Shown here in pieces: positions 33,125 through 54,772 of a stretch of 64,000 bases of DNA; position 1 is the first letter of the stretch; each line of letters starts with the position of its first letter. Where the stretch lies: contig NZ_CP070225.1 of assembly GCF_021631985.1 (NCBI RefSeq), positions 8,246,001 to 8,310,000 on the forward strand, in the 5' to 3' direction. The DNA comes from Sandaracinus amylolyticus (GTDB lineage Bacteria > Myxococcota_A > Polyangia > Polyangiales > Sandaracinaceae). The notes beneath the pieces are model-generated. The model made no database searches. It had not been told where the DNA came from and worked only from the letters and a program-made list of their open reading frames with translations. The translations under genes and the position numbers were made by a program.

Positions 33125-34020
33125 GCAGCAAGCAGGCGAACGAGGTCACCGTCGCGGCGATCCAGTGTCCGCTCGGCGGCTCGCGCGCGCAGAACGTCGA
33201 GCGCGTGATCGGATGGGTGCGCGAGGCGGCGAAGCGCGGCGCGAACGTGGTGCTCCCGAGCGAGCTCTTCGAGGGGCCCTACTTCTGCTGCGAGGAGAAG
33301 GAGCGCTGGTTCGAGGAGGCGCGTCCCTTCGAGGGCAACGAGACGGTCGCGCTCTTCGCGAAGCTCGCGAAGGAGCTCGGCGTGGTGATCCCGATCTCGT
33401 TCTTCGAGAAGGCGGGACCCGGCGCTTACTACAACACCGTCGCGATGGTCGACGACGGCGGGAACGTGCTCGGCTGCTACCGCAAGAGCCACATCCCCGA
33501 CGGGCCGGGCTACGAGGAGAAGTTCTACTTCCGGCCCGGCGACACCGGGTTCAAGGCGTGGAAGACGCGCTTCGGCACGCTCGGCGTCGGCATCTGCTGG
33601 GACCAGTGGTACCCGGAGTGCGCTCGCGCGATGACGCTGCTCGGCGCGGAGCTGCTCTTCTATCCGACGGCGATCGGCAGCGAGCCCCACGCGCCCGAGC
33701 TCGACACGCGCGACCCCTGGCAGCGCGTGATGATCGGTCACGCGGTCGCGAACGCGACGCCGGTGATCGCGGCGAACCGCATCGGCAGCGAGCTCACCCA
33801 GACGTTCTACGGATCGTCGTTCGTCGCCGACATGCGCGGCGACAAGGTGAGCGAGCTCGATCGCACCACCGAAGGGCTCGTGATGGCGACCTTCGATCGC
33901 CAGAAGATCGCGAGCTACCGCGCGAGCTGGGGCTTCTTCCGCGATCGCCGCCCCGAGCTCTACGGCGTGCTGATGACCGCCGACGGCCAGCACGTGGTGC
34001 GCGCGGCGGGCAAGGTCTGA
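33121..34020 (+). CDS. aguB: N-carbamoylputrescine amidase
   Basis: The product is 299 aa, a nitrilase-superfamily enzyme with the catalytic triad: Glu in VLPSELFEGP (~46), Lys in CYRKSHIPDG (~121) and Cys in GVGICWDQWYPE (~157). It hydrolyses N-carbamoylputrescine to putrescine, CO2 and ammonia. Co-translated with aguA (ATGA overlap), which supports the assignment over a generic nitrilase. Confidence 0.93.
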   Translation: MSSKQANEVTVAAIQCPLGGSRAQNVERVIGWVREAAKRGANVVLPSELFEGPYFCCEEKERWFEEARPFEGNETVALFAKLAKELGVVIPISFFEKAGPGAYYNTVAMVDDGGNVLGCYRKSHIPDGPGYEEKFYFRPGDTGFKAWKTRFGTLGVGICWDQWYPECARAMTLLGAELLFYPTAIGSEPHAPELDTRDPWQRVMIGHAVANATPVIAANRIGSELTQTFYGSSFVADMRGDKVSELDRTTEGLVMATFDRQKIASYRASWGFFRDRRPELYGVLMTADGQHVVRAAGKV

Positions 34021-36007: not shown

Positions 36008-36916
36008 ATGGCGCGCTGGGATCGTTTCGTGTGCGTCGACTGGAGCAAGGAGCTCGCGGGTCGACAGGCGTGGGTCGCCGAGATCGGGATGCGGCGGATT
36101 GCGCCGCTGGAGGACGTGACCCCGACCCTCGATGCGCTGCTCGCGTTCGCCCGGGCGCTGCCGGGGTGCACCGTGATCGGCATCGACGCGGCGCTCGGCG
36201 TCCCGCGCGCGTATCTCGAAGGCGCGCGCGCCGCAGTGCCGGCGTGGCGAGAGGCGAGCGACTTCCTCACCTGGCTCGTGCTCGCGTGCGAGTCGCCGGC
36301 GTTCGAGCGCGAGGCGGGCTCGGCGGCGGCGTGGCGGCACGATCGCCCGTTCATCGCGGTGCCGGCGGGGAAGGGCGCGCTCGATGCGTTCTGGACGCGC
36401 GCCGGAGGGCGGCTGCTGCGCGAGATCGACGTCGCGACCGGCGCGAAGTCGCCGTTCGTGGTGTCGGGCGTGCCGGGCACGGTGGGCTCGGGCACCCGGG
36501 TGCTGTGGGCGGAGCTCGCGAGGCTGCTGAGCGGCACGTGCGACTTCGCGGTCTGGCCTTTCGACGGAGGGCTCGATGCGATCGAGCGCCGCATCGCGAT
36601 CGCCGAGATCTACCCGCGGGTGTGTTACTCGCTCGCGCTCGCGCCCGAGCTCCCGGCGCCGATCTCGCGTCTCGCGAAGACGTCGCGCGAGGTGCGCGAG
36701 GCCGCGATCGTCGCGCTCGAGCGCGCGACCTGGGTGCGCGATCGCGAGGTGGCGCTGCGCGAGCTCGAGCTGGCGCGAGAGAGCGAGGACCACTTCGACG
36801 CGCTGATGTCCGCGGCAGGGCTGCTGCGCTGTGCGCTCGAAGGACGCGCGCTGGAAGGAGAACGCGACGTGATCGAGGGCGGGATCCTGGGCCTCGCGTC
36901 GGTGCGGCTCACGTGA
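36008..36916 (+). CDS. DUF429-like protein (predicted RNase H-like fold)
   Basis: The product is 302 aa from ATG at 36008. It begins with a Cys/Asp-containing strand (FVCVDWSKELAGRQAWVAEI), consistent with DUF429 proteins of the RNase H-like superfamily, and has VIGIDAALGVPRAYLEGARA near residue 55 and a later EIYPRVCYSL segment. The Asp residues at 11 and 60 could be metal ligands. No other family signature. It converges with the shikimate-dehydrogenase-like gene, overlapping 8 bases. Confidence 0.6.
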   Translation: MARWDRFVCVDWSKELAGRQAWVAEIGMRRIAPLEDVTPTLDALLAFARALPGCTVIGIDAALGVPRAYLEGARAAVPAWREASDFLTWLVLACESPAFEREAGSAAAWRHDRPFIAVPAGKGALDAFWTRAGGRLLREIDVATGAKSPFVVSGVPGTVGSGTRVLWAELARLLSGTCDFAVWPFDGGLDAIERRIAIAEIYPRVCYSLALAPELPAPISRLAKTSREVREAAIVALERATWVRDREVALRELELARESEDHFDALMSAAGLLRCALEGRALEGERDVIEGGILGLASVRLT

Positions 36917-37733
36917 GCGCGTGGCGTGCGGCCGCTGCGATCTGCTCCGCGCTCGGCGTGATGCCGGTGTAGAGCACGAACTGATCGACGGCCTGGAGCA
37001 CGATCACCTCGTCGCCGGTGATCACCTGCTTGCCGAGCGCGCGGGCGCGCGCGACGAAGGGCGTCTCGGGCGGCATCGCGACGACGTCGAACACGATCTC
37101 GGACGCGGCGATCGCGTCGTCGTCGAACGCGAGCGCCTGCGCGTCGGGGCCGGTCATGCCGAGCGGCGTGACGTTGATCAACATCGGCGCGCGCACCGCG
37201 TCGAGGTCGCGCTTCCAATCGAAGCCGAGCGTCTCCGCGAGCGCGGGGCCGCTCGTCTCGTTGCGCGCGACGATTGCTCCGTCGCGGAAGCCCGCATCGC
37301 GCAGCGCAGTCGCGACCGCCTTCGCCATGCCTCCACTGCCGCGCAGCACGAACGGGGTGCTCGGTGCGATCGTGTGGCGCTCGAGGAGGGTGCGGATCGC
37401 GGCGTAGTCGGTGTTGTGCCCGGTGAGCCGCCCCGCGTCGTTCACGATCGTGTTCACCGACTCGATCGCGCGCGCCGAGGGAGCGAGCGCATCGAGCAGC
37501 GGGATCACCGCTTCCTTGAACGGCATCGAGATCGCGCAGCCGCGGATCCCGAGCGCGCGCACGCCGCCGATCGCGGCAGGCAGATCGGTCGTGGAGAACG
37601 CCTTGTAGATCCAGTCGAGCCCGAGCGCTGCGTAGAGGTGGTTGTGGAAGCGCGAGCCGAACGAGCCGGGGCGCGCCGAGAGCGACATGCAGAGCGTGGT
37701 GTCGCGGCCGATGGTGAGTCGGGTCGGGGACAT
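36909..37733 (-). CDS. Shikimate-dehydrogenase-like protein (SdhL/HI0607 type)
   Basis: The product is 274 aa. The catalytic Lys lies in SMPFKEAVIPLL (~72) and Asp in TGHNTDYAA (~109). The N-terminal CMSLSARPGSFGSRFHNHLY pattern and MPFKE rather than NVTVPHK place it in the SdhL-type subgroup, in which shikimate activity is weak. The nucleotide motif is VLRGSGGMAKAVATAL. It follows the SWIM gene by 9 bases on the same strand, so it may be the last gene of the YehI-L-M-P-Q-like operon. Whether it belongs functionally is unknown. Confidence 0.82.
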   Translation of the reverse strand: MSPTRLTIGRDTTLCMSLSARPGSFGSRFHNHLYAALGLDWIYKAFSTTDLPAAIGGVRALGIRGCAISMPFKEAVIPLLDALAPSARAIESVNTIVNDAGRLTGHNTDYAAIRTLLERHTIAPSTPFVLRGSGGMAKAVATALRDAGFRDGAIVARNETSGPALAETLGFDWKRDLDAVRAPMLINVTPLGMTGPDAQALAFDDDAIAASEIVFDVVAMPPETPFVARARALGKQVITGDEVIVLQAVDQFVLYTGITPSAEQIAAAARHALT

Positions 37734-37742
37734 GGAAGTGCC

Positions 37743-39485
37743 TCAGCGTGCTCGGGCCGAGAGATGGTGCTCGATGCGGCGTGCGACGACGCTCGTGCCG
37801 AGGAACGCGCGCGCGAGCTGCGCGGAGTCGACCGTCGCGCGCGCGCCGCGCACGTCGCGATCGTGGGCGAGGGCGCTCTCGGCGAGCGCGCGCAGTACGG
37901 ACGCCGCGGTCGTGAGGTGGATGCGCTCGAGCTCGCGCGCCTCGCGCTCGATCGCGACGCGTGCACCTTGCCCGAGCGTGGCGCGTCCTCCGGTCACGAC
38001 GCGCGCGAGGCGACGACGCAGCGACGCGAGCGGGTCGGCGGGCGCGCGTGGTGCGCGCTCGGGCGCGACGCTCGGCTTCGTGAGGTACGCGGCGTGGAGT
38101 GGATCGAACGAGGGTATCAGTCGGCCGTGCAGCGCCTCGGGGAGCGTGAGGGAGGGGCCCTCGCTGGGGCGGGGATCGACGTAGATCGCGAGCAAAGCGC
38201 TCCCGAGGCGACGACCGAGCCGGAGCCGCAGCGCGAGACCACACGCGAGACCGGGATGACGCGCGAGGACGCGCAGCGCGTCGCGATCGAGCAGCGTCGG
38301 ATGATCCGACGCGATCTCGACCCTCAGCTCGGTGCCGTCCTCGCACTCGACGATCAGCGCGCCCTCGCACGTCGCGCGGAGGGTCGCGCGGGTGAACAGC
38401 AGGTCCCATCCGGCGCGGCGCTCTTCGGGAGGCATCGCGAGCGCGGCGAACGCGCGATCGATCTGCTGCGCGGCCGGCGTCGCGAAGAGCGTCGCGATCG
38501 GCGGCTCGGTCCACGCGCTCGGCGCGCGTCGCACCGCGCGCACGTCCTGGCCGGCACCGAGCCGCCCGTCGGCCGACGCGGTGCCGCTCTGCACGAAGAG
38601 CCCGGCGCGGCAGAGCTCGGCGTGCGAGAGCGTCGCGTCGCCGATGCGCACGCCCGCGTCGTAGCTGGCGCGCGCGCGCGACGGCTCGCCGGGCCTCACG
38701 TCGGCGAGCGTGTAGAGCGCGCCGTCGTCGGCGATCAGCGTGGTGACCACGCCCGCGTGCCCGGTGCCCGCGATCACCGGCTCGCTGAAGAGCCCGGTGA
38801 GCCGCAACGAGCCGATCTCCTCGTGCTCGCGGCGATGACGGCCGATCCACCCGCGCGCGACGTCGGCGCTCGTCGAGAGCACGTGCGCCACCGCGAGCGC
38901 CTCTTCGAGATCGGTGCGCAGCGTCTCGAGCGCGAAGTCGGGCTCGCGCGCCGCGAGCGCGCGCATCCCGCGGGTGACCCGGAGCAGACCGCTCGCGAGG
39001 CGCGGGAGGCTCGCGCTGCGCGCGGCGTGGATCGCGCGCAACAGCTCGGTCTCTCGCAGCGCGCCGAACGACGATGCGCCGTGCTCGACGACGGTCGCGA
39101 GCGCAGCGAGCGAGCGCGAGGCCGCATCGCGCTGGGCCTCGTCGAGCGTGGAACGCTCCTCCGAGCTCACGGCGGGCTCGCCGGTCGTCTCGACCGGCGC
39201 GGCGTCGGCGAGCGGCAGCGCGCGCAGCACGCCGAGCAGGTGCGCGCAGCGCGGCGCGAGCAAGCAGGTGCACGCGGCCTGCTCGGCGCGCTCGATGCGC
39301 ATCGACTCGGGGCGCAGCGTGACGCGCTCGTTGCCCACCGCGATCACCAGCGCGCCATCGGTCTCGCTCCACGGCGCCGCGGTGATCGTCGCGGCGTCGG
39401 CCTCGACCTTCTTGAGCACACGCGCCGGCGCGGCCGCGAGCATCGTCGCGAGCAGCGCGGGATCGATCGTCGGGCGCGCGCTCAT
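37743..39485 (-). CDS. SWIM zinc-finger protein, YehQ-like
   Basis: The product is 580 aa. The SWIM motif CxCx5CxH reads CTCLLAPRCAH (C72, C74, C80, H82). The remaining ~480 residues lack a recognised catalytic motif; a long helical/mixed body includes DLEEALAVAHVLSTSADVARG and GLFSEPVIAGTGHAG. The start ATG 39485 overlaps the VWA-fusion stop (ATGA). E. coli YehQ has the same place and a SWIM domain. It may bind nucleic acid or a protein partner of the MoxR/VWA pair; function unknown. Confidence 0.85.
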   Translation of the reverse strand: MSARPTIDPALLATMLAAAPARVLKKVEADAATITAAPWSETDGALVIAVGNERVTLRPESMRIERAEQAACTCLLAPRCAHLLGVLRALPLADAAPVETTGEPAVSSEERSTLDEAQRDAASRSLAALATVVEHGASSFGALRETELLRAIHAARSASLPRLASGLLRVTRGMRALAAREPDFALETLRTDLEEALAVAHVLSTSADVARGWIGRHRREHEEIGSLRLTGLFSEPVIAGTGHAGVVTTLIADDGALYTLADVRPGEPSRARASYDAGVRIGDATLSHAELCRAGLFVQSGTASADGRLGAGQDVRAVRRAPSAWTEPPIATLFATPAAQQIDRAFAALAMPPEERRAGWDLLFTRATLRATCEGALIVECEDGTELRVEIASDHPTLLDRDALRVLARHPGLACGLALRLRLGRRLGSALLAIYVDPRPSEGPSLTLPEALHGRLIPSFDPLHAAYLTKPSVAPERAPRAPADPLASLRRRLARVVTGGRATLGQGARVAIEREARELERIHLTTAASVLRALAESALAHDRDVRGARATVDSAQLARAFLGTSVVARRIEHHLSARAR

Positions 39486-42400
39486 CGCACCTTCTCTCCC
39501 ACCCAGCGCGCGAGCTCGAGCGGCGTGAGCGCGGCGACCGGCATGCCCGCCGCGACCAGTCGCTCCGCGATCGCGCGCTCGTAGCGAGGCTTGCCCGCGT
39601 CGTCGAGCGCGGCGAGGCCGAGCAGCGTGACGCCCGACTCCGCGAGCGCGCGCACCTCGGCGACCAGGCTCGGCACCGGCCCGCCCTCGTCGAGATCGCT
39701 CACCAGCACCATCAACGTGCGCGAGGGCACCGTCGCCAGCGATCGCGCGTAGCGCAGCGCCTTCGCGATGTCGGTGCCGCCGCCCACCCGCACCTCGAGC
39801 AGGAGCCCGAGGGGATCGTCGACACGATGGCTGAGGTCGACCACCTCGGTGCTGAACGCGACGAACGAGGTCTCGATCGCGGGCAGCGCGCCGAGGATCG
39901 ACGCCATCATCGCGCTGTAGATCACCGAGGGCTCCATCGAGCCCGAGACGTCGACCACCAGGATCACCCGCCAGTCGAGTGAGCGCCGCGAGCGGGTGCG
40001 GAACACGAGCCGCTCGGGCGCGAGCTGCGCGACGCCGTCGTCGAAGCGCGCGGTGCGGAGGTTGCGGCGAATGGTGCGATCGAGATCGATCGGACCGCCC
40101 GAGCGCAGGGTGGGGCGCGGCGTGGTGAGGCCGACCAGCGCGGGGCGCACCCGGGTCGCGAGCTGATCGACGAGCTCGCGCGTGACGCGCTCGACCAGGC
40201 GACGCAGCCGACCGAGCTGGGCCTCGGGGAGCGCGCCCTTCAGCGAGAGAACACTCTCGAGGAGCTCGATGGAGGGCGTGACGGTCTCGGGATCGAGCTC
40301 GAGCAGCGCGCCGACCCGACCCTCGGCGCCGGCGCGCGCGAGCACTTCGTCGCGCACGCTCTCGCCGAAGAGCGCCTCGAGCTCGTCGGACCACTCGCGG
40401 GTGGTGGGGAAGCTCGGCTCGAGCCCCGCGCCACCGCCCGCTCGCGAGCCTTCGCCGCGACCGGGGCCGTAGAGCTCGTCGAGCGCGCGCGCGGCGCGCA
40501 TCGCGTCGGGAGGGAGCGCGCGGGTGTCGCGACCGAGCACGATGCGCCAGCGATCACGCGCCGAGAGGGCGCCGGTGGCGCGCGTCGCCGAGGTGGCCTC
40601 CGGGATGGCGATCGACGTCGCGCTCGGCATCGCGAGCCCGAGCGCGCCGAGCGCGTCGCGCGCGATCAGGTCGGCCTCGGCGTGGAGCGCGAGGAGCGCG
40701 GGATCGATCGTCAGCTCGAAGTCGGCTCGCTCGCTCCCGTGGCGCTCGATCAGGCTCTCGAGGAAGCGACTGCGCGCCGCGGGCGAGAGCACCTCGAACC
40801 CATCGCGCAGCGCGGGGGCCCGCGCGAGGAACTCGCGATCGCCGATCGTCTCGATGCGCGACGCGAGCTCGCCGAGCAACGAGGGATCACCCTCGAGCGC
40901 GCTGGCGCCCGCGATCAACGCACCGCGCAGCCGGCGCGCCAGACGGCGCTGCCCGTCGCGATCGACCGCGGCGTCGACCCACGATCCGAGGGACCGCGAC
41001 ATCGCCTCGGGCGTCAGCGCGTCGAGGCTCACCAACGTCATCCCCGCCGCGCCTTCGATCAGCGGCGCACCCTCGCGGAACAGTCGCTTCAGCGCGTCGG
41101 TGGCGCGAGCGCGCACGCCGTCGCGCGACGATCGGATCAGCGCGAGCGAGTCCACCAGCGCGTGCGCATCGGCCTCGTCGTCGGAGCCCGCGAGCCCCTC
41201 GAGCGCCCCCGCGAGCGCGAGCTCGAGCGCGTCGGGATCGACGTCTGCGGGCCAGGTGAAGCGCGGCACGTCGGCGGCGACATCGACGTCGATCGGCAGC
41301 CCCGGCACGTGCCCGGCGCGCGCCCGCGCGAAGAGCGACGCCCCCGCGACGAGATCGCGCAGCGCGCCCTCGGTGCGCAGCGCGTGCTGCACGTCCGGAA
41401 GGCTCCGCTCCACGTAGCGCACGAGGCCGGCCTCCGCGGCGCGCTCCAGCAGCGCGAGCCGCGCCCGCACCGAGCGCGCGTCCTGCTGCTCGAGCCGCGC
41501 TTCCTCGATGCGCAGCGTGCCTTCCGCGGCTTGCGCGAGGGTCACGCCGCGCACCGCCGCGAGCTCGAGCATCGCCTCGGTCGCGGGCGAGAGCGTGATC
41601 TCCCAGACCTCGGTGAGCGTCTCGAACGGACCCTCGCTCGCGATGCGACGTGCGTAGGGCGCGCCCACCAGCGCCAGGCGCTCGAGCGTGATCTTGCGCC
41701 GGCGATCGAGCGTCGATCCCAGCACGTCGAGGCGCAGCCGCGGCGCGCGCTCGTAGCGCGCGAGGCGCTCGCTCGGGCTCGGCAGGCGCAGCTCTTCGAG
41801 CAGCCCGAGCACGTGCGGCACGAGCCCGGAGCGCGGCGCTCCCGGAGGCAGACGACCGCGCTCGTGCCCCACCATCACCCGGCCCAGCGCGGCGGCGAGC
41901 GCACGACCGCGCCCCAGCGGCTCACCCTGGGCGAGCGCCGACTCGAGCCCTTCGAGCAGCTCGCGGCGCGACGGCGCGTGCAGCCCGCGCAGCTGCGCGA
42001 GATCGAGCGCGACGCGCACCGCTTCGTTCGCGTCGGGCACCCCCGCGACGTGCTTCTTCTCGCGCATCGCGCGGCACACCTCGACCACGGTGCGCCGCAG
42101 CGTCGCCGCGATCTTCGCGGGGTCGGAGCCGCACTCGAGCACCCGCTGGTGCCACGCGGGATCGAGCACGCCCGCCGGATATCCGGAGCGACTGTCGAAG
42201 AGCTCGAAGGTGTAGGGCACGAGCGACGACACCCGGGTCGCGTCGGGCTCCGGCACGTCGATCGGCACGTTCTCGTCGGGCAGCACCGCGTCGTCGAGCA
42301 GCGCCGCCGCGTGGAACGAGCCGACCACCGCCGCGATCCGCGCCCCCGACGCCCGCAGCGCTGCCAGCCGCGCCCTCATGAACCGCTCGCGCGCGAGATC

Positions 42401-42961
42401 GCGCGAGGGCACGCCGGTCTGCTCGGCATCGCGCCGCAGCGCCCACCCGAAGAGCAACGCCGCGCGCCGGATCGCCTCGGGATCGGCGCCCACCGCCGGC
42501 GCTTCCACCATGCGATCCCAGAGCTCCGACGTGTCACTCACGCCGTGCTGCGCGACCAGGCGATCGGCGATCGTCGGTGCCGAATCCGCGCGCATCTCGA
42601 TGCGCTCGTCGCGCTCACCGAGCGGCTGATCGAACGCGCTCACCGGCACACCCTTCGCGCGCGCCCAGCGGATCGCCGCGAGCTCCGGCGAGAACTCGGC
42701 GAACGGATGGAACACGAGGTCCGAGCCCTCGTGCGACACCGACGCCAGCGCGACCGGCGGCACGAGCTCGGGATGTCCGAGCCACTCGATCCACGGCTGC
42801 AGATCCGCCGCCAGCTCGAGCGCGACGTGGGTCGGCGCGAACGCGTCGAGCCAGCGCGGCATCGCGAGCGCACACGCCGGCGAGTGGTGCCGCACCCCGA
42901 TCAGGAACGGCTCCACCGCGCCCGCGAGCCGCGCGATCGCGTGCTCTGCGTCGTCGCTCAC
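39482..42961 (-). CDS. DUF5682 (YehM-like) fused to VWA (YehP-like) protein
   Basis: The product is 1159 aa from GTG at 42961 (GTGA overlap with the MoxR gene stop). Residues ~1-750 match the DUF5682/YehM pattern (EPFLIGVRHHSPACALAMPR near 15-34, VVGSFHAAALL near 220). Residues ~990-1159 form a von Willebrand A domain with an intact MIDAS: DVSGS at ~1004-1008, Thr in GGGTDI (~1063) and Asp in VSDLDEGG (~1089). In E. coli these are two adjacent genes, yehM and yehP. No stop or new start separates them here. The VWA part should bind the MoxR ATPase. Confidence 0.88.
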   Translation of the reverse strand: MSDDAEHAIARLAGAVEPFLIGVRHHSPACALAMPRWLDAFAPTHVALELAADLQPWIEWLGHPELVPPVALASVSHEGSDLVFHPFAEFSPELAAIRWARAKGVPVSAFDQPLGERDERIEMRADSAPTIADRLVAQHGVSDTSELWDRMVEAPAVGADPEAIRRAALLFGWALRRDAEQTGVPSRDLARERFMRARLAALRASGARIAAVVGSFHAAALLDDAVLPDENVPIDVPEPDATRVSSLVPYTFELFDSRSGYPAGVLDPAWHQRVLECGSDPAKIAATLRRTVVEVCRAMREKKHVAGVPDANEAVRVALDLAQLRGLHAPSRRELLEGLESALAQGEPLGRGRALAAALGRVMVGHERGRLPPGAPRSGLVPHVLGLLEELRLPSPSERLARYERAPRLRLDVLGSTLDRRRKITLERLALVGAPYARRIASEGPFETLTEVWEITLSPATEAMLELAAVRGVTLAQAAEGTLRIEEARLEQQDARSVRARLALLERAAEAGLVRYVERSLPDVQHALRTEGALRDLVAGASLFARARAGHVPGLPIDVDVAADVPRFTWPADVDPDALELALAGALEGLAGSDDEADAHALVDSLALIRSSRDGVRARATDALKRLFREGAPLIEGAAGMTLVSLDALTPEAMSRSLGSWVDAAVDRDGQRRLARRLRGALIAGASALEGDPSLLGELASRIETIGDREFLARAPALRDGFEVLSPAARSRFLESLIERHGSERADFELTIDPALLALHAEADLIARDALGALGLAMPSATSIAIPEATSATRATGALSARDRWRIVLGRDTRALPPDAMRAARALDELYGPGRGEGSRAGGGAGLEPSFPTTREWSDELEALFGESVRDEVLARAGAEGRVGALLELDPETVTPSIELLESVLSLKGALPEAQLGRLRRLVERVTRELVDQLATRVRPALVGLTTPRPTLRSGGPIDLDRTIRRNLRTARFDDGVAQLAPERLVFRTRSRRSLDWRVILVVDVSGSMEPSVIYSAMMASILGALPAIETSFVAFSTEVVDLSHRVDDPLGLLLEVRVGGGTDIAKALRYARSLATVPSRTLMVLVSDLDEGGPVPSLVAEVRALAESGVTLLGLAALDDAGKPRYERAIAERLVAAGMPVAALTPLELARWVGEKVR

Positions 42962-44133
42962 GCCGGCTCTTCCAGGAGCGCGCGCAGCTCGTAGAGCTGC
43001 TTCCAGAGCCGCGCGCTGCCGCTCTCGGCGCGACGCTTCACCGCGGAGTCCCAGTAGGCGAGGAGCTTGCCGCGATCGCGCGGCTCGTCCTTGAGCACCA
43101 CGCCGAGCAAGTGGCTCGGCAGCAGCGACGCGGGGTCGCGATCCGCGTCGAGATAGGCCGCCGACAGACCGAGCGCCGACGCGACGCCGACCGCCTCCGC
43201 GGTGCTCATCACGGTGCTGGGGCGATCGACCGACCAGCCCTCGACGGTGCGCCCCGCGCGCAGATCGCGGAACGCGGTGACCAGCGCCTCGAGCACCGCG
43301 TCGTCGACCCGCAGCGGCTCGCCCACCCGCGCCAGCGTCGCCACCGCGCGCCGCTTCACCAGCGCGATCTCGTGCTCGAGCACCGCGATCGGCGGCACCT
43401 GCTCGAAGTTGAAGCGTCGCTTGAGCGCGGCGCTCATCTCGGAGACGCCGCGATCGCGCAGGTTCGCGGTGGCGATCACGTTGAAGCCCGGTCGCGCGTG
43501 CTCGAGCCGACCGAGCTCGGGCACCGAGAGCCGTCGATCGGAGAGGATCGACACCAGCGCGTCCTGCACCTCGGGCAGGCAGCGCGTGACCTCCTCGATG
43601 CGCACCAGCGCGCCGGCGCGCATCGCGGCGAGAACAGGCGAAGGCACGAGCGCCTCGCGATGCGGCCCTTTCGCCAGCAATAACGCGTAGTTCCAGCCGT
43701 AACGAAGGTGCTCTTCGGTGGTGCCCGCGGTGCCCTGCACCACCATCCCGCTGCTGCCCGAGATCGCGGCGGCGAGCAGCTCGGAGAGCATCGACTTCGC
43801 GGTGCCGGGCTCGCCGACGAGCAAGAGGCCGCGCTCTCCCGCGAGCGTGACGACGCTGCGCTCCACCAGCGCGCGATCGCCGACCAGCTTCTCGGCGATC
43901 ACCAGCGAGCGCGGCACCTCGGAGGGCGCATCGACGTCCTTCGGGAGCTCGAGCGCCCCGCCGCGCGAGCCGCACACGAAGAGCACCACCGCGCGCGGCG
44001 TGAGCGCCCATCCCGGCGGTCGCGGACCGCGATCGAGACGCGCCAGGAACGCGAGCTCCTCGGCGTACACGCGCTCGGGCGGAGGAGCCTGGACCTCGTG
44101 CGTCGCGTCGTCGTCTCGTTCGACCGCCGTCAT
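42958..44133 (-). CDS. MoxR-type AAA+ ATPase, YehL-like
   Basis: The product is 391 aa. Walker A GEPGTAKS is at ~107-114, Walker B is LVRIEEV (~163-169), sensor 1 is NVIATANLRDRG (~215) and the Arg-finger region is in AALKRRFNFE. These define the MoxR/RavA-like branch, which remodels proteins with a VWA partner. The ATG at 44133 overlaps the upstream TGA by one base (TGATG). E. coli yehL occupies the same position beside yehM-yehP-yehQ. Its clients are unknown. Confidence 0.93.
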   Translation of the reverse strand: MTAVERDDDATHEVQAPPPERVYAEELAFLARLDRGPRPPGWALTPRAVVLFVCGSRGGALELPKDVDAPSEVPRSLVIAEKLVGDRALVERSVVTLAGERGLLLVGEPGTAKSMLSELLAAAISGSSGMVVQGTAGTTEEHLRYGWNYALLLAKGPHREALVPSPVLAAMRAGALVRIEEVTRCLPEVQDALVSILSDRRLSVPELGRLEHARPGFNVIATANLRDRGVSEMSAALKRRFNFEQVPPIAVLEHEIALVKRRAVATLARVGEPLRVDDAVLEALVTAFRDLRAGRTVEGWSVDRPSTVMSTAEAVGVASALGLSAAYLDADRDPASLLPSHLLGVVLKDEPRDRGKLLAYWDSAVKRRAESGSARLWKQLYELRALLEEPA

Positions 44134-47100: not shown

Positions 47101-49094
47101 TGCGCGACGTAGCCGGCGCCATCGTGCCAGCCCGCGTCGGTCGCCACCGCGCGTTTGGGCGCACCGAGCCAGTGCGCGCGCGTCTTGCCGGAGCCGACCA
47201 CGACGAGCACCTCGCCCTCGACCCAGCGCGCGCGGAGGATCATCTCCCTCTTCGCGAGCTTCAGCTCGTCGCGCCGCTCGATGCGCGTCGGGCCCACCGT
47301 GATCGCGCGCACGCCGTCGCTCACGAGCACGCAGGGCCAACATGGATGGACCGCGAGGGCGCGCGTCCCGCTCGGGTCGAGCTCGCGCAGCGCCTCCTCG
47401 AGCGCCGGCCACGCGAGCTCCTCGAGCAGCCCGGCGCGCAGCGTCGTCGCGAGCGCGCGCGCGGGATCGATCGCGCGCAGCGACGCGAAGAGCTCGGGCG
47501 CGTCCTGGAACGTGCGGCGGGTGGTGCCGCGCTCGAGCGTGCCGAGGCCGCGCTCGAACGTGGCCAGCGTGCCTTCGCCCAACGCGTCGATCCGCCCGGC
47601 GACCCAGCGCCGGCGCAGCTCGGCGAACGCCTGCTTCCCCGCGCTCGCCCGCGCGAAGTCGGCGGTCTTCGCGAACGCCGCGAACGCGCTCTCGAGCAGC
47701 GGCCCGTACCGGGGATCGCGCGCGAGGTGGATCGGATCGACGCCGCGGTACGCGCTGCGCGCGGGATCGAGCGCGAACGTGCTCCAGGCGCGCAGATCGA
47801 CGGGCTCGGCGCCCGGGCCCCAGTCGTCGTCGCCTTCGTCGTCGTCGAGCGCGGGCTCGTCGAGCGCGGGCGCGGCGAGCGGGATGCCGAGCGAGAGCGC
47901 GAGCTCCGCGAGGTCGACGTCGAGCTGCGGATGGCGCCCGACGAGCACGCGCAGCGGAGCGCCTTCGGCGACCAGGCGATCGCGCATCGTGCGCACCAGC
48001 TCGAGCATCGCGTCGGGTGCGGCGACGTCGGCATCGCGGTAGCTGTCGAGCAGGCGCGAGAGCCACGCGCCCGCGGCGACACCCGGTGCTTCCGCGGGAG
48101 GGCACGTCACCAGCGCGATCGCGCCCGCCTGCTCGAGCACGCGCAGCCACGCTCCGGCGCGCGCCGAGCCCTTGTCATCGCCATATCGACGCGGATGCAC
48201 CGGCACGATCGCGAGCAGCGCGATGCGCGCCTCGGGCTTGCGCGCGCCGAGCCGACCGAGCGCCTCCGCGTACCCGCTCCACACCTCGATCGGGGCGCGT
48301 GCCATCGACGGCGCGGCGAGCAGCTCCTCGATCACGCGCTCGTCCTCGCGCGCGACGTCGAGCCCTGCGGCCGCTGCCATCTTCCGCAGATCGCCGGGCA
48401 TGCCCGACCACGGCGGCACGCCGCCGAGGGTGCGGCGGATCGCGAGCTCGCGCAGCAGCTCGTAGCTGCGCACCGCGTCCTTCTCCGCCGCGAGCTCCTT
48501 CACGTACTGCCCGAGCTCCTTGGTGGTCAGCGCGCCGGCGAGCGCGGCCTCGAGGTAACGCGCGTTGCGCAGCTCGGCGTCGAGCTTGGTCGCGTGGGCA
48601 CGCTCGGCCTCGCGCGCGCGCCCGAAGAGCTGGGCCGCGTAGGTCGTGTTCCCGAGCTCGGCGAACGCCCGCGACGCGTCGTCGCAGAAGGGCGGGACGA
48701 AGCGCGGCAGCGCGCGCTCGAGGCGCTTCGTGATCGCGTCGATCGCGTCCTTCGCGTGCCCCGGCTTGCTCGCGGCGCGACGCATCGCCTGCTCGAGCTC
48801 GCGACGCAGATCGATCGCGACCCGCGCGTTCCGCGGATCGTTGGTGATCGCCCAGCCCACCAGCCCCACGCTGCGCGTGGCGCCGCGCGCGACGTCCGTC
48901 GTGACCTCGGGCGCCGCGAACCCGTGCAGCGTCATCTCGGCGTCGGCGGCGGCCCCGAGCGAGCGCGGCTCGACCCGCACCACCACGCGCCCCGGCAGCA
49001 GCGGGTGCGCGTAGGCGCGGGCATCGACGCGCTCGCCGACCTCACCCGCGTCCGCCGCGATCCATCCGCCCATCCGCAGCAGCGTCTCGCTCAT
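44133..49094 (-). CDS. Giant YehI/MolR-like protein A
   Basis: The product is 1653 aa, far larger than most neighbours. It begins MSETLLRMGGWIAADAGEVG and contains the shared element SKPGHAKDAIDAI near residue 108 and FLPGPWEERSAPELP near the C-terminus, both also found in the downstream paralog. The rest is mainly helical repeats without Walker or protease motifs; an acidic insert LDDDEGDDDWG lies near 430. Position next to the MoxR ATPase matches E. coli yehI (DUF4132). It probably forms a scaffold or client of the ATPase. No signal peptide. Confidence 0.8.
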   Translation of the reverse strand: MSETLLRMGGWIAADAGEVGERVDARAYAHPLLPGRVVVRVEPRSLGAAADAEMTLHGFAAPEVTTDVARGATRSVGLVGWAITNDPRNARVAIDLRRELEQAMRRAASKPGHAKDAIDAITKRLERALPRFVPPFCDDASRAFAELGNTTYAAQLFGRAREAERAHATKLDAELRNARYLEAALAGALTTKELGQYVKELAAEKDAVRSYELLRELAIRRTLGGVPPWSGMPGDLRKMAAAAGLDVAREDERVIEELLAAPSMARAPIEVWSGYAEALGRLGARKPEARIALLAIVPVHPRRYGDDKGSARAGAWLRVLEQAGAIALVTCPPAEAPGVAAGAWLSRLLDSYRDADVAAPDAMLELVRTMRDRLVAEGAPLRVLVGRHPQLDVDLAELALSLGIPLAAPALDEPALDDDEGDDDWGPGAEPVDLRAWSTFALDPARSAYRGVDPIHLARDPRYGPLLESAFAAFAKTADFARASAGKQAFAELRRRWVAGRIDALGEGTLATFERGLGTLERGTTRRTFQDAPELFASLRAIDPARALATTLRAGLLEELAWPALEEALRELDPSGTRALAVHPCWPCVLVSDGVRAITVGPTRIERRDELKLAKREMILRARWVEGEVLVVVGSGKTRAHWLGAPKRAVATDAGWHDGAGYVAHLPGLGASDGGIALRAGAEREPERGHRAVFDGTTLWTDTRRDGALRLIEVDPRTGEHGRVSAPRFFEEARDGAFDVYGSWLTPAPAGLGASPLGLRDGMLGTRVTLRGRTGRVIERIDGVRIEVTHGLRGRRTALVDLPARTHHLVVTEDYADLTTWTIEGSGARLVQEIQEREDGGSATSVVPSGIFLHFTQPRDLEGSQALARIDEARAAAVLEHARGATGASSELENALAAVRAVLPEITAPALLDAVAGIVARTLAQADALDALIEARDPEGEGDREGALHDDDVIEPLARWLDRHWGDGAFEPFLRRLARVLDAFDRGQPVPRWGRTVPSNVHWSRLIGARGALAMIATSPLIAAAERTVLTDVIALLEALPLERWAHRMRTFEARPSDAAKASLALDDVGDAHRIGITTAGASVFVMRGTPWAPTWHVVELAREGAPFTALPGCTMQHERVLAAPPIVPIAALVRARGLRTLDAAGIDALAEACSISRAEALLVLGGLLTSLPRTREEKRAIAPVRDALGLKAAAIDAAIEELDALPFAKRSALMLAALPADPAAPWDDPRAHVQHLAARWAEVVGRRVTVAPELSTRAGKALSLAAASRTLAALLAPDDVPVLAVAPRCAIDVEGVVVALDANGAPIDDGRAEVFDETMVTDLARLVAWAFVELPVGDPLRAGIPRLIAKVRERLASRDLLFMAGRLPFSSPSRDEAVIAAQAQAHVDALGGTPFDPIASTLDADDDEPLPTLRGRDTGLVLALPTHWDGIVLAFRPSEVARGVSEGDAALLAGTRMLPLVRWWLSDGLSELAARVASTPVPTGRSEADPRLSDSALVAKVASALGVSSDAATYYLQLLALAEPTDDRVLAWNGWKRATLRAAGEELERAELVVRGKRARAGRELFLPGPWEERSAPELPLERWKLPLYGGETADARTWFPLGRVLALRPLHALFDEAWARLERGDRPQLEDARSVVGKRAKKTAPKKKARS

Positions 49095-52000
49095 CGCGCG
49101 ATCTCCTCGAGGCGAGGCGGCTCGACCTTCGCGCGCGCCCACACCGTGCGGAAGTGCGCCGGCATCGGCTCGAGCGGCACCTGCACCCCGAGCGGGAACG
49201 TCCATCCATTCGCGCCCTTGCGCGCGAGGAACGGCAGCTTGAACGACTCGAGCGGCTTCGCGGGCGCGCGCAGCGCTTCCCACGGTCCCGGCAGGAAGTG
49301 ACTGCGCCCGGTGCGCTCGCGCTTGGCGATCTCGACGAGCTCCTTGCCCGCGAGCTCGTCGCGCGCGGACTCGAGCGTCTTCGCGCTCCATCCGTTCCAG
49401 CGCCGCACCTTCGCGTCGCTCGGCGCGGGAAGGGCGAGCGTCTGGGCGTAGAGGATCGCGGCGTCGCGCGAGAGCCCGTGCGTCGCCGCGACGTCGTCGA
49501 CCACGTCGAGCGCCGGACACGCGTCGTAGCTGCCCGCGGTGCGCGTGGGATCGCCGATCCGCGCCACGATCGCGGCGCACGGATCGCTGCGGAGGAAGCC
49601 CGCCCAGTCGAGCGCGCTCACCGGACCGGCGAGCGCGGCGAGGGCCTTGGGATCCTCGCTCATGCGCGCGGGGCGGAAGAAGTACTGCAGCATCCAGCCC
49701 GCGCTCGGCGCAGCGGCGACGTACGCGCCGAGATCGCGGCCGCGCGCACCGTCGCGCTCGAACGCGATGCCACCGAGCTTCGCGAGCGCCTCGTTGGTCG
49801 CTTCGATCGGGCTCTTTCCCTGCTCCCACGGCACGTGGTGCATGCCGAGCGGAAGGAGGAGCTCGGGATCGTCGAGGCGCTCGCGCGCGATGCGATACAC
49901 CGACGCGAGCGTCGCGAGGAACGGGTGCCCCGCGGGCAGCTCGACCGCAAGGTGCGCGAGATAGAGCGCGACGAGGCGCACCGTCGCGACGTCGAACGAC
50001 GCATCCTGGGGGCGGGGGTGGATCGCGAGCTTCGGTTGTCTCGAGAGGCGCGATCCCTTCTCGCCCTCGAGCATCCAGCGCATCGTCGTGGACGGAGGCT
50101 CGGGGACGAGCTTGTTCAGGTCCTTCGCGAGCTCGTCGGCGAGCGCTTCGTCGACCTGCACCGTCTCCCCGACCCGCGCCCGCAGCAGCTCGCCGATGCG
50201 GGTGGCGAGCGCGACGAGATCGTCGCCGAGCGGCTCGCTCGCGAGCTGGGAGAGCATCGCGCGGAACGCAGGACGCTCGCGCGCGCCGAGCGCCACCGCG
50301 ATCTTCTCGGTCTCCTTCGCCTTCACGCCGAAGCGCTCGCGCAGCTCCTTCGAGAAGAATTCGTTGGGCGGCGTCGCAGCGGGCAGACCGCCGAGCCACA
50401 CCGCGGCCTCGGTGCTGGTCGAGCCCGCGCGCTCCATCACGATCGCGGCGTGCTCGCGCCCGAACGCGAGCGCGCCGCGCTGCTCGATCGTGCGCGCGAG
50501 CGCGGGCACCGTCTCGGCCGTGCCGCTCCATACCCGGGCCTCGCGCTCGACGTTCAGCCACGCCGGCGCGACGAACGTGCCGCTGCGCGAGACCTCGAGC
50601 ACGACCGCGCTCTGCCAGACCTTGCGCACCAGATAGAGGCTCTCGCCGCTCGAGAACGTCGCGCACGCGAGCGTCACCGGCTTCGGCAGCTTCGAGACCT
50701 CGAGCGTGCCCCGCAGCACCCGCGCGTTCGGCAGCGAGAGCAGGCCCGCGGCGGCGAGCGCCTCGGCGAACGTGTGCGCGGTGCGCCGGCTCGTGTCGCT
50801 CCACGCGGGGAACGCGGTCTGGAGCACCACCGCGTCGGGCGCCTCGAGCGCGCACTCCCACGCGAGATCGCCACCCTTGCCGACCTCGTCGGGCACTCGC
50901 TCGCCCGCGAGGTGGGCCCGCGCCACCCGGCCCACCGCGTCGATCTCGGCGGTGATCGCCTGGTCGTGCGACCACCCCGCGCCCTGACCGACGAGCGCGA
51001 GCAGCGGCCGCAGCTCTCCGATCGCGATCGTGCCCACGACCGTGCGCGTCGCGCGCGCGGGATCGCGCAGCGCGACCTTCTCGGCGAGCCCCTTCGCGAG
51101 CCAGCGCGCGCGGCGGACCACCCCGGCGATCGCCCGCTGCAGCACCGGGCTCGTCACCTCGGGCAGCGCGCTCGCGACCGCGACACGCGCCTGCTCGAGA
51201 TCGTCGACGTCGCCCGCCGCTGCGAGCAGCGCCGCGGCGCGCTCGGTGGTCATCGCGCGCAGCGCGCGCGAGCCGCGCTCGTCACGCGTCGCCGCGAAGT
51301 GCAGCCACCACGGCGGCATCGGGCGCTCCGTGCCGCGCTGGTACGAGACCGCGTGCGTCGAATTCGCGCCGAGCAGCGATGCCTCGCGTCCCTTCGCGTC
51401 GAGCAGCACGTACATCGGGTCGCCGTGGTGGTGCGCGTGGGTCGCGGCATCGACGATCACCCGCGGCGCGTCGTCGCCCGGCCACGTCACGATCGCGCGC
51501 GCCGCGTGCGGGCCCACCCATCGCACGCCGTCGATGCGCTCGCTCTCGACGATCTCGCCGCGCGATCGCACCCGCATGCCGACGAGCCCGTCGCGCACTC
51601 CGAGCGGCGAGGTCGTGAGCCCGCGCGCCGGCACCAGCGCTGATCGCACCTCGTCGATCCGCGCGTCGCCGTCGGAGAACGACTCGAAGAACGAGGGCAA
51701 CGAGCGTCGACCGAGCTCTCCGGTGCGCGGGCTCTGCTCGACCCACTGCGAGCCCGCAGCGCCGCGATGCTGGAGCGACCACACCGTCCGTCCATCCGAG
51801 CAGAGCGCGCGCATGTCGACGCGCGGCGCGTCCCCCGGCGCGAGCGCGCGACCGCCGAGCGTGGTGAGCCCGTCCTCGAGCTCGATCACGAAGTCCGGCC
51901 CGCGGTACCAGTACGCGAGCTCGTGCACCGTGCGCGCGCCCGACCACAGGTACGAGCGCTTCCACGAGACCTTGCGATCGGCGCACAGATAGAGCACCTG

Positions 52001-53794
52001 CCCGCCGCTCCAGTACGCCGCCTCGACCTTGCCCGGCGGCTCGATCTCGATCTCCGCGATGCGCCCCGTCGCGCCGAGCACGATCGTGCGGCGCGCGCCG
52101 ACGACGATCGGATGCGGGAACGCGCCGGCGAGGGTCGGCATCGCGCCGTCGTCGCGCGCCAGCTGCGCGATCGCCTCGTCGAGCGCGATCCATCCGAGCT
52201 CGTCGACGATCCCGCCGCGCAACGTGACGCCGAGCAGCTCCGCGACGTCGAGGGTGCGCAGCGCGTCGAGCTCGGCGGGGAGCGCGCGGAACGTCTCCGC
52301 GCGCGTCTTGCCCTCGAGCCACACCTTCACGCTCTCGAGCGCGGGCAGCCCACCTTCGCGCAGCGTCTGCACGCGCTCGCGCACGATGCGATCGCGCACC
52401 GCGCCCAGCGCGGGACGCTGATCGGCGAGATCCTCGAACGTCTCGCGGCCCATCGTCTCCTCGACCGCGAGGGCGACCTTGGGCGCGAAGCGCGGATCGT
52501 TCGTCAGCGCGCTCAGCGCGCGCGGGCGCTCCTTGGTCTCGCGAGTCGTCGCGCGGCCGAACGCGTCGCTCCACGCGTGCAGCGGCACCCGCTGGTTCGC
52601 GTGCGGCTCCACGAGCGGCAGCTCGAGCTCGATCGCGAGATCGACGAGATCGGGATCGATCCAATGGCCCTTCGCGAGCGTGAGCGGGACCGCATCCCGA
52701 CGCAGCCGCTCCGCGAACCGGCGCAGCAGCGCGAAGAGCGCGTCGGGCGCGTCGATGCCGCGCCAGCCGCGCTGGAGGTGCGCCGCGATGCGCGACACCC
52801 AGGGCGCGATCGGCTCCTCGAGCGTCGCGAGATCGTCGATCGCGCCCGCGTCGTCGAGCAGCGTGATCCACCACGCGGCCGAGCCGTTCTTGTGAGCGCT
52901 CGGGAAGAGCCCGCGCAGCCGCGCCCGCACCGCCGCATCGCCGCGCGCGACGCGCACCAGCGTGCTGCGCGCGTCCTCCCAGAACGCCATCGACGCGTGG
53001 GCGAGCGCGGGCGACTCGAGCACCTCGAGCAGCACGCTCGCTTCGGCCTCGTGCGCGTCGTGCCCGGCGCGCTTCGCGAGGCGGCGCAGATCGCGCAGCA
53101 TCGTGCCCCAGGGAGGCATGCCGCCGACGGTCGCGCGCACCGCGAGCGCGCGGAGCTCGCGATGGGCGCTCTCCGTGTCGTCGGCGCCCTCGAGATCCTT
53201 CGCGTAGTCGCTCAGCGCCGCCGAGGTCAGCGCGCCGCTCAGCGCGAGCTCGAGGAACGCATCGCGCCGCGCCTCGGGATCGACTTCGAGCGCGTACACG
53301 CGCTCGGCCTCGCGCGCCTTGCCGAAGAACGTCGCGGCCTGGGTCTTCGCGCCCGCGGCCACGAACCGTCGCGCCGCTTCTTCGTAGAACGAGGGCAGGA
53401 AGTGCGGCACCGAGCGCGCGAGCTGCTTCGCGATCGCGTCGATCGCGTCCTTCGCGTGGCCGGGCTTCGACTTCGCGCGACGGGTCGCGCGCTCGAGGTC
53501 GCGCATCACGTCGAGCGCGTGCCGCGCGTTGTCGGGATCGCGCAGGATCGCCGCCGCGGGGAACCCGACCGCGCGCCGCACCGACGCGCCGACCACGACT
53601 GGATCGCCCGCGGGCGCGCACCCGAGCACGCTCATCGCGAGCTCGTCCGCCTCGCGAAGCCCCGCTTGCGAGAGGCGCACGATCACGCGGGCGCCGAGCG
53701 CGGGATGCGAGAAGCGACGCGCCTCGATCGGCTCGGCCGCGCCGCGGATGGGCGCAGGGAGCACGCCGCCGAGCTGCGCGTGTCGCTCACTCAT
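49091..53794 (-). CDS. Giant YehI/MolR-like protein B, paralog of protein A
   Basis: The product is 1567 aa. It shares with protein A the element SKPGHAKDAIDAIAKQLAR near residue 109, the RxWNGW-(x)-LE pattern and the C-terminal FLPGPWEALRAPAKPLESFK, in the same order over the full length, so the two are tandem duplicates that have diverged strongly. No catalytic motif or signal peptide is seen. ATGA overlaps its stop with protein A's start, and its start overlaps the DUF4132-like gene by 8 bases. It is likely co-produced with A in fixed proportion. Confidence 0.8.
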   Translation of the reverse strand: MSERHAQLGGVLPAPIRGAAEPIEARRFSHPALGARVIVRLSQAGLREADELAMSVLGCAPAGDPVVVGASVRRAVGFPAAAILRDPDNARHALDVMRDLERATRRAKSKPGHAKDAIDAIAKQLARSVPHFLPSFYEEAARRFVAAGAKTQAATFFGKAREAERVYALEVDPEARRDAFLELALSGALTSAALSDYAKDLEGADDTESAHRELRALAVRATVGGMPPWGTMLRDLRRLAKRAGHDAHEAEASVLLEVLESPALAHASMAFWEDARSTLVRVARGDAAVRARLRGLFPSAHKNGSAAWWITLLDDAGAIDDLATLEEPIAPWVSRIAAHLQRGWRGIDAPDALFALLRRFAERLRRDAVPLTLAKGHWIDPDLVDLAIELELPLVEPHANQRVPLHAWSDAFGRATTRETKERPRALSALTNDPRFAPKVALAVEETMGRETFEDLADQRPALGAVRDRIVRERVQTLREGGLPALESVKVWLEGKTRAETFRALPAELDALRTLDVAELLGVTLRGGIVDELGWIALDEAIAQLARDDGAMPTLAGAFPHPIVVGARRTIVLGATGRIAEIEIEPPGKVEAAYWSGGQVLYLCADRKVSWKRSYLWSGARTVHELAYWYRGPDFVIELEDGLTTLGGRALAPGDAPRVDMRALCSDGRTVWSLQHRGAAGSQWVEQSPRTGELGRRSLPSFFESFSDGDARIDEVRSALVPARGLTTSPLGVRDGLVGMRVRSRGEIVESERIDGVRWVGPHAARAIVTWPGDDAPRVIVDAATHAHHHGDPMYVLLDAKGREASLLGANSTHAVSYQRGTERPMPPWWLHFAATRDERGSRALRAMTTERAAALLAAAGDVDDLEQARVAVASALPEVTSPVLQRAIAGVVRRARWLAKGLAEKVALRDPARATRTVVGTIAIGELRPLLALVGQGAGWSHDQAITAEIDAVGRVARAHLAGERVPDEVGKGGDLAWECALEAPDAVVLQTAFPAWSDTSRRTAHTFAEALAAAGLLSLPNARVLRGTLEVSKLPKPVTLACATFSSGESLYLVRKVWQSAVVLEVSRSGTFVAPAWLNVEREARVWSGTAETVPALARTIEQRGALAFGREHAAIVMERAGSTSTEAAVWLGGLPAATPPNEFFSKELRERFGVKAKETEKIAVALGARERPAFRAMLSQLASEPLGDDLVALATRIGELLRARVGETVQVDEALADELAKDLNKLVPEPPSTTMRWMLEGEKGSRLSRQPKLAIHPRPQDASFDVATVRLVALYLAHLAVELPAGHPFLATLASVYRIARERLDDPELLLPLGMHHVPWEQGKSPIEATNEALAKLGGIAFERDGARGRDLGAYVAAAPSAGWMLQYFFRPARMSEDPKALAALAGPVSALDWAGFLRSDPCAAIVARIGDPTRTAGSYDACPALDVVDDVAATHGLSRDAAILYAQTLALPAPSDAKVRRWNGWSAKTLESARDELAGKELVEIAKRERTGRSHFLPGPWEALRAPAKPLESFKLPFLARKGANGWTFPLGVQVPLEPMPAHFRTVWARAKVEPPRLEEIAR

Positions 53795-54710
53795 CCTTCT
53801 TCTCCTCGACGACGCGCGCGGCGTGGATCGCGCTCGCCATGCGCATGCCCTCGGAGAACGCGACCGGCCCGACCGCGCCGAGCGCGAGCGAGCGCTCCTT
53901 GTCGTCGACGAAGACGAGCTCGCCCGTGTACGCCTCGGCCTCGGGCGCGTCGGCGCCGAGCCAGAAGCGCGCCTCGACGAGCGCGCCGGCTTCCCACACC
54001 GGGCACGTCGCGAACCCGCCGCGCACGCGGTAGCCGAGCGTCTTGGCCTTGCCGAGCGCGTGGTTGAGCTGCGCGAACTTCGCGTTCTCGAAGTCGCGCA
54101 CCGAGGTCGCGCTCTCGTTCTTCGCCGCGGTGCGCGCGAACGTCTCGCGGAAGAGCTGCTGGACGCCCTGCGTCAGCGAGAGCTCGGTCGCGAGGGCGCG
54201 CAGATCGTCGAGCTCCTCGAGCAGGATCGGATGCGGGATCGCGATGGTGGTCGCGCGGATCCACTCGGTCTCGCCGTCGAGGGTGACGATGCCGACGCCG
54301 CGCTCGGCCTCGGCGGCGCGCAGGAAGCCGAGCTTCTCGTCGTCGCCGTCGGTCGCGCGCACCACCGCGTTCTCGAGCGGCGCGCGCCACGCGGGATCGA
54401 TCCACACCGCCTCGATCACGGTGCGCGGGGTGGGCAGCGAGCGCAGCATCCAGGTCTCGACCGTCTCGCGGCAGCTGCGCTCGTGCGCGTCGAGGTGCTC
54501 GACGAGCTGCTCGAGCATCTCGTGCGCGTCGGTGTCCTTCACCGGCTTCGGGACCGACGCGAGCGTCTTCCCGGCGGCGTTGCGCGCGACGATCTTGCCC
54601 CCCTGGAGCGCGAGCGCGTACCCGGTGCCGGTGTCGATCCAGCCTCCGTCCGCCTCGTGCCCAACGACGCTCTCGCTCTTGGTCTTCGCTGATTTCTTCG
54701 GCTTGGCCAT
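53787..54710 (-). CDS. DUF4132-like protein, head of the Yeh-like operon
   Basis: The product is 307 aa. It has a basic start (MAKPKKSAKTK), then WIDTGTGYALALQGGKIVAR, GKTLASVPKPVKDTDAHEML and LVEHLDAHERSCRETVETWM, followed by LPTPRTVIEAVWIDPAWRAP. This order (W, Gk-..-vPk, long helix, hP..vW) matches the DUF4132 module of YehI/MolR proteins. The module would thus be a separate protein here, instead of part of YehI. It is the first gene of the chain; the 62 bases upstream may contain its promoter, or it may be read from the lipoprotein gene. Confidence 0.75.
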   Translation of the reverse strand: MAKPKKSAKTKSESVVGHEADGGWIDTGTGYALALQGGKIVARNAAGKTLASVPKPVKDTDAHEMLEQLVEHLDAHERSCRETVETWMLRSLPTPRTVIEAVWIDPAWRAPLENAVVRATDGDDEKLGFLRAAEAERGVGIVTLDGETEWIRATTIAIPHPILLEELDDLRALATELSLTQGVQQLFRETFARTAAKNESATSVRDFENAKFAQLNHALGKAKTLGYRVRGGFATCPVWEAGALVEARFWLGADAPEAEAYTGELVFVDDKERSLALGAVGPVAFSEGMRMASAIHAARVVEEKKDE

Positions 54711-54772
54711 CGGCTCTCCCCGGGGCTGCCGATGCTACGCCGATCCGCTCGGGTTGGTGCCCGACCTCGGGC
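54711..54772. promoter_or_regulatory. Gap before the Yeh-like operon
   Basis: 62 bases between the lipoprotein stop and the first operon gene start. It contains a short GC-rich inverted repeat (GCCCGA-GG-TCGGGC) close to the lipoprotein stop. No clear promoter is visible, so read-through from the glycosyltransferase/lipoprotein genes is possible. Confidence 0.35.

Follow-up and report, generated by a model that had tools for sequence, protein, structure and literature searches.

The six minus-strand genes A–F, located in the 64,000-nucleotide stretch of Sandaracinus amylolyticus DNA analyzed here (the window), may encode an accessory machine of the YehL class ("type II Yeh") that remodels proteins at the expense of ATP and would serve a pair formed by the protein A and a giant protein (A-giant); we give this reading an even chance. 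It is supported by synteny, by the presence of both cassettes of the locus even where they lie apart (G188, G150, G131, and G171), and by the association of the giants with the fused form of E (8/8 vs. 0/15). Correlated distances among the components, motifs intact in 13 systems, the precedent of NorQD (PMC13036017), and the architecture of the giants, with an N-terminal solenoid and conserved ends enclosing a variable middle, point in the same direction. On the other hand, the reading is weakened by the poor hydrolase matches of DUF5682, by giants that are mostly unmodelled, and by the existence of orphan giants. The positions of all features are reported in Table 1.

Table 1. Genes and segments of the window considered in this work
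Feature	Position	Strand	Description
Peptidyl-arginine-deiminase-type and carbon-nitrogen hydrolase genes	32066-34020	+	adjoining, as in agmatine-to-putrescine conversion
aroE-type shikimate dehydrogenase gene	36909-37733		flank of the block
Accessory block	37727..56934		19.2 kb; missing from the same-genus genome G001
Gene F	37743..39485	-	SWIM zinc-finger protein, 580 aa, YehQ-like by position
Gene E	39482..42961	-	DUF5682 (YehM-like) + VWA_CoxE (YehP-like) fusion, 1159 aa, MIDAS intact
Gene D	42958..44133	-	MoxR AAA+ ATPase, YehL subfamily, 391 aa, P-loop GEPGTAKS
Gene C	44133..49094	-	giant protein 2, 1653 aa, old paralog of B
Gene B	49091..53794	-	giant protein 1, 1567 aa, family without database model
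Gene A	53787..54710	-	stand-alone DUF4132 protein, 307 aa
Lipoprotein-like gene	54773..56938	-	721 aa; GTG start overlaps glycosyltransferase stop
Glycosyltransferase gene	56935-58185		other flank of the block
SNF2-type helicase gene	58307-62026	+	1239 aa; also in same-genus genome; outside the accessory block

Organization of the locus and its flanks

All six genes have open frames with a strong third-position G+C periodicity. Consecutive genes overlap by 8 bases (A/B), 4 bases (B/C, ATGA), 1 base (C/D, TGATG), 4 bases (D/E, GTGA), and 4 bases (E/F, ATGA); gene D could alternatively start from the GTG at 44136. Such overlaps make translational coupling across the junctions plausible. The relative locus of G041 is equally tight, with a 4-base overlap at 4/4 junctions. 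A preliminary description of this DNA had reported overlapping junctions all the way from 54710 to 37743; the overlaps in the window and the same tight packing in relatives bear out both this claim and the proposed gene order. It had placed the beginning of the block at 36909, and here only the A–F order stands, since the gene starting at that position is of the aroE type and lies outside the system.

This boundary emerges from the comparison with G001, a genome of the same genus (locus L086). The DNA alignment runs at 91.7% up to 56935, where the glycosyltransferase gene ends, and resumes at 37726, in aroE, with 89.5%. The two flanking genes, parted by 19.2 kb in the window, overlap by 4 bases in G001; this direct contact rules out aroE as a member of the operon. 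The block, which contains A–F plus the lipoprotein-like gene, was gained or lost as one unit. Gain in the window lineage is the simpler reading because the distribution is patchy, but G001 may instead have lost the block. No relative of the lipoprotein-like gene was found beside any other copy of the system, so that this gene is probably not part of the machine.

Components of the operon

Within the operon, Pfam confines DUF4132 to A (E=1.5e-26, 93.9 bits with a cut-off of 27). A profile of the YehI family, built from six YehI-type proteins, also detects A (probability 96%, E=2.3e-9), aligned to YehI residues 944–1205. Both searches place A in the YehI/MolR (DUF4132) family and, judging from the aligned region, A represents the YehI C-terminal domain (~260 residues) as a separate protein. 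The relatives of A in G026 and G136 carry an N-terminal WGR-like extension, which Pfam confirms as WGR in G136 only (E=3.8e-19). This extension is relevant to the proposal that the system responds to DNA damage or nucleic-acid stress, with A (WGR-DUF4132 in relatives) and the SWIM protein F binding nucleic acid and the AAA+ protein remodelling nucleoprotein. The invariant SWIM motif (see below) would fit such a role, as would the strong induction of the Deinococcus genes DRA0166 (DUF4132) and DR2173 (WGR) upon DdrO depletion (PMC8533742); however, the A protein of the window has no WGR, and we regard this proposal as improbable.

As to B and C, the preliminary description had taken them for giant DUF4132-type proteins. 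This assignment is wrong: DUF4132 is found by Pfam in 0/22 giants, and the YehI-family profile yields a probability of 0.1% against the same 22 proteins, while the positive control A works with the same profile. The searches thus rule out that the giants are DUF4132/YehI proteins and put them outside the YehI/MolR group, the outcome that the description itself had named as speaking against it. Comparisons with a single YehI sequence were set aside in favor of the family profile, since A, the positive control, failed likewise and they are uninformative. By these profile searches, the giants are a family of their own, separate from YehI; the "expanded" locus is expanded in that it has two copies of the giant, not in its YehI content. 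Neither B nor C has a match over the cut-off in Pfam, and in NCBIfam and PADLOC none of the proteins A–F has a close family. We found no solved structural relative of the giants. An annotated Streptomyces plasmid record names the giant a "DNA-binding protein", but no domain supporting this name was found.

The giants are conserved at both ends and variable in the middle. Their predicted structures have a mean pLDDT of 50 and 42, with most of each protein unmodelled, because the underlying alignments had three rows (window and Hamadaea sequences only). In this low-coverage model, a TPR-like helical solenoid is confidently predicted at the N-terminus, at about residues 90–340. Residues from about 555 to 810 are predicted as strands, mostly with pLDDT below 50, which raised the suspicion of a beta-propeller in this three-row model. 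The model of the C-terminal half is too poor for use.

B and C share 35% identity over 961 aa, and B is 54% identical to the giant of G008, whose locus has a single one. The tree joins B to the G008 giant with 100/100 support, while C forms a long, deep separate branch. This topology rules out a recent tandem duplication and indicates that the pair is either old or assembled from two sources. Two adjacent giants occur only in the window among ~25 loci; G041, G026, G131, and G404 have extra giants elsewhere in the genome.

D matches Pfam AAA_5 (E=2e-38); its identity with YehL is 47% over 374 residues, against 21% over 124 with RavA. Therefore, in a comparison of two (YehL and RavA) of the seven known MoxR subfamilies (PMC3893208), D falls into the YehL subfamily, in line with the VWA_CoxE domain encoded by the neighboring gene E. 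Indeed, E contains DUF5682 (E=1.9e-142) and VWA_CoxE (E=4e-59), the latter ending at residue 1154 of 1159, and its identity to YehM (25%) and YehP (39%) identifies it, at the sequence level, as a fusion of the two. DUF5682 shows weak matches to Tiki/TraB/ChaN in 2 and 1 of 16 sequences (best E=0.004) and has the invariant residues H25, E49, and H217; no relative was found in the PDB. These matches weakly suggest that DUF5682 is a putative Tiki/TraB-type metal-dependent hydrolase. PHROG matches to E were also seen. A record labelled "Bacteriophage sp." (L054, MT835988.1) carries MoxR-DUF5682-VWA together with DUF5717 and DUF5716 genes in bacterial-looking DNA.

F scores 17.6 bits against the SWIM model of Pfam, just below the cut-off of 19.6, and contains the zinc motif C-x-C-x5-C-x-H as CTCLLAPRCAH. 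None of the four ligand positions varies among 13 homologs, to which YehQ and proteins of the split type described below belong; outside the motif the similarity to YehQ is weak (hhalign 10%). Overall, the P-loop, MIDAS, and SWIM motifs are intact in 13/13 systems compared, with GEPGTAKS identical in all of them and in E. coli YehL. The MoxR, VWA, SWIM, DUF5682, and DUF4132 components listed in the preliminary description are thus all present according to Pfam, SWIM below threshold, but DUF4132 does not extend to the giants.

Two separable cassettes and their distribution

The order A-giant-D-E-F recurs in other myxobacteria, for which the preliminary description had suggested a synteny check. 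It is contiguous in eight other Myxococcota (G026, G041, G064, G094, G136, G207, G356, and the more distant G372), in Hamadaea tsunoensis (L001), and on two Streptomyces plasmids (L050, L053). The locus consists of two separable cassettes, A-giant and D-E-F, which are usually joined and co-occur. For instance, the two are found at 5.33 Mb (A-giant) and 1.26 Mb (D-E-F) in G188; G150 carries D-E-F upstream of A-giant, and in G131 the two cassettes face each other. In G171, A-giant-D and E-F are parted by six genes, including those of a NACHT protein and an M1-type peptidase; PITM/LNS2-type (lipin-like) and AAA_16 proteins are also encoded between D and E in this genome (L057/L093). Finally, A-giant-D and E are on different contigs in G146.

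DUF5682 is present in 13/17 giant-bearing genomes; those without it include the incomplete assemblies G373 and G275, as well as G296, which has only a fragment of a giant. In a class-level sample, giants occur in 8/8 genomes with the fused E and in 0/15 with only the split DUF5682/VWA (Fisher 2e-6, shared ancestry ignored), and the seven tested genomes with neither form also have no giants. Pairwise distances of A, giant, D, E, and F correlate at 0.75–0.94 over 12 systems; the giant diverges fastest (mean identity 31%) and D slowest (67%). Orphan giants with none of these neighbors (L018, L019, L058) would be expected if the giants were mere passengers, conserved in their neighborhood and functionally unconnected to D-E-F. 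This is very improbable given the exclusive association with the fused E and the retention of separated cassettes in the same genome.

The distribution also bears on a possible conflict system directed against phages or competitors, as proposed for MoxR-vWA ternary systems, in which A-giant would sense the invader, D-E transmit the signal, and DUF5682 act as effector. Giants are found in only 21/331 sampled Myxococcota genomes, the whole block is missing from a same-genus genome, the system resides on Streptomyces plasmids and its E. coli type on rhizobial ones, the giants are duplicated and divergent, and a NACHT gene lies within the G171 operon. Moreover, the ternary systems with FtsH or a beta-propeller (PMC7159879) share the P-loop GxxxTAKS; E. 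coli YehL, however, has the same P-loop. In addition, PADLOC gave no credible defense-system match for A–F and ten neighbors, no conventional effector is present, and scans of viral contigs with narrow patterns returned no relative. We consider a conflict function possible but rather unlikely.

Relation to known systems and proposed mechanism

The closest known arrangement is the yeh operon of E. coli K-12 (yehI, yehK, yehL, yehM, yehP, yehQ), which matches the window in combining DUF4132, MoxR, DUF5682, VWA, and SWIM in the same order within one operon. The equivalence of gene order stated in the preliminary description holds to this extent; the contents differ. YehI is one large protein in E. 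coli, while DUF4132 here is the small protein A; DUF5682 and VWA are separate there (yehM, yehP) and fused here; yehK is absent here, and one or two giants of an unrelated family are added (two in the window). From their domains, we assign A–F to the Yeh operon type, of which they are a distant and rebuilt form; the giants are excepted because they are not YehI. Plasmids of Sinorhizobium, Agrobacterium, and Iodobacter (L104, L105, L102) also have annotated Yeh genes of the E. coli type (DUF5682, large DUF4132, VWA, SWIM, AAA); in Iodobacter, two DUF4132 genes lie near each other.

A split type with the same core occurs in myxobacteria (SWIM - HEAT protein - MoxR - DUF5682 - VWA), and its MoxR is 42–52% identical to D. 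In this type, however, DUF5682 and VWA are separate, a HEAT-repeat protein replaces the giant, and the SWIM gene comes first. The MoxR-vWA-beta-propeller/FtsH ternary systems (Kaur et al., 2020; PMC7159879) likewise combine a GxxxTAKS MoxR, a VWA protein, and a large variable third partner. In the window, on the other hand, VWA lies C-terminal of DUF5682 with no propeller after it, there is no FtsH, and D scores 20.0 bits against the bpMoxR model, below the cut-off of 27. The position of VWA at the C-terminal end of E indicates that A–F is not a beta-propeller ternary system, despite the common P-loop; the families of the window's components are unnamed in the text of Kaur et al. (2020). In the literature searched (most subscription journals not covered), we found no function reported for YehL, no experiment on a YehL-type operon, and no description of the A-giant-D-E-F module.

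NorQ/NorD and CoxD/CoxE also pair an AAA+ MoxR protein with a VWA partner, of the VWA_CoxE type in our case. There the clients are known metalloenzymes, whereas here DUF5682, SWIM, DUF4132, and the giant are added. MoxR rings work with VWA proteins on a client in NorQD (PMC13036017) and RavA-ViaA (PMC3893208), and both pairs act in the maturation of specific clients. By analogy, and since A-giant is the sole constant extra partner, D-E could be a maturation chaperone which inserts a metal or cofactor into A-giant, or assembles it, as the working enzyme or complex, with the assistance of F. This is unlikely considering that A and the giant have no recognizable cofactor site or enzyme domain and that D-E-F has the additional conserved DUF5682 and SWIM, which NorQD does not need.

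The preferred reading of A–F is a remodelling machine of the YehL class. The preliminary description had proposed a multi-protein machine, and this is now probable, with D close to YehL and E covering both YehM and YehP. D would form a hexameric ring that grips E by its VWA part in the way NorQ does NorD, and this ring and the VWA part would constitute the motor. ATP turnover would pull or twist the long DUF5682-VWA protein and thereby either switch on DUF5682, the putative hydrolase, or remodel a client. The A-giant pair would be this client or an adaptor choosing the target; the giant might dock through the TPR-like solenoid at its conserved N-terminus, the C-terminus being conserved as well and the middle variable. 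The zinc finger of F may dock nucleic acid or a partner protein, and the two giants of the window could confer two specificities on one machine.

A more far-reaching and rather doubtful extension is that A-giant sets the specificity of a fixed AAA+ engine, D-E-F, and is itself exchangeable and diversifying. If so, one engine would be combined with one to several divergent giants per genome, in tandem or distant, and new giants would bring new targets. A two-cassette system of this kind, possibly of immune type, would represent a class not described so far and would give the YehL branch of the MoxR proteins its first function.

With the giants, the locus brings in a widespread protein family, of about 1600 residues per member, that has no database model, and A shows that DUF4132 can stand as a separate protein, which defines the natural boundaries of this domain. 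Compared with the E. coli operon, the variant adds a large constant partner family that tracks one form of the machine, together with natural genomes in which engine and partner lie apart; for these reasons, the target of the Yeh operon becomes directly testable.
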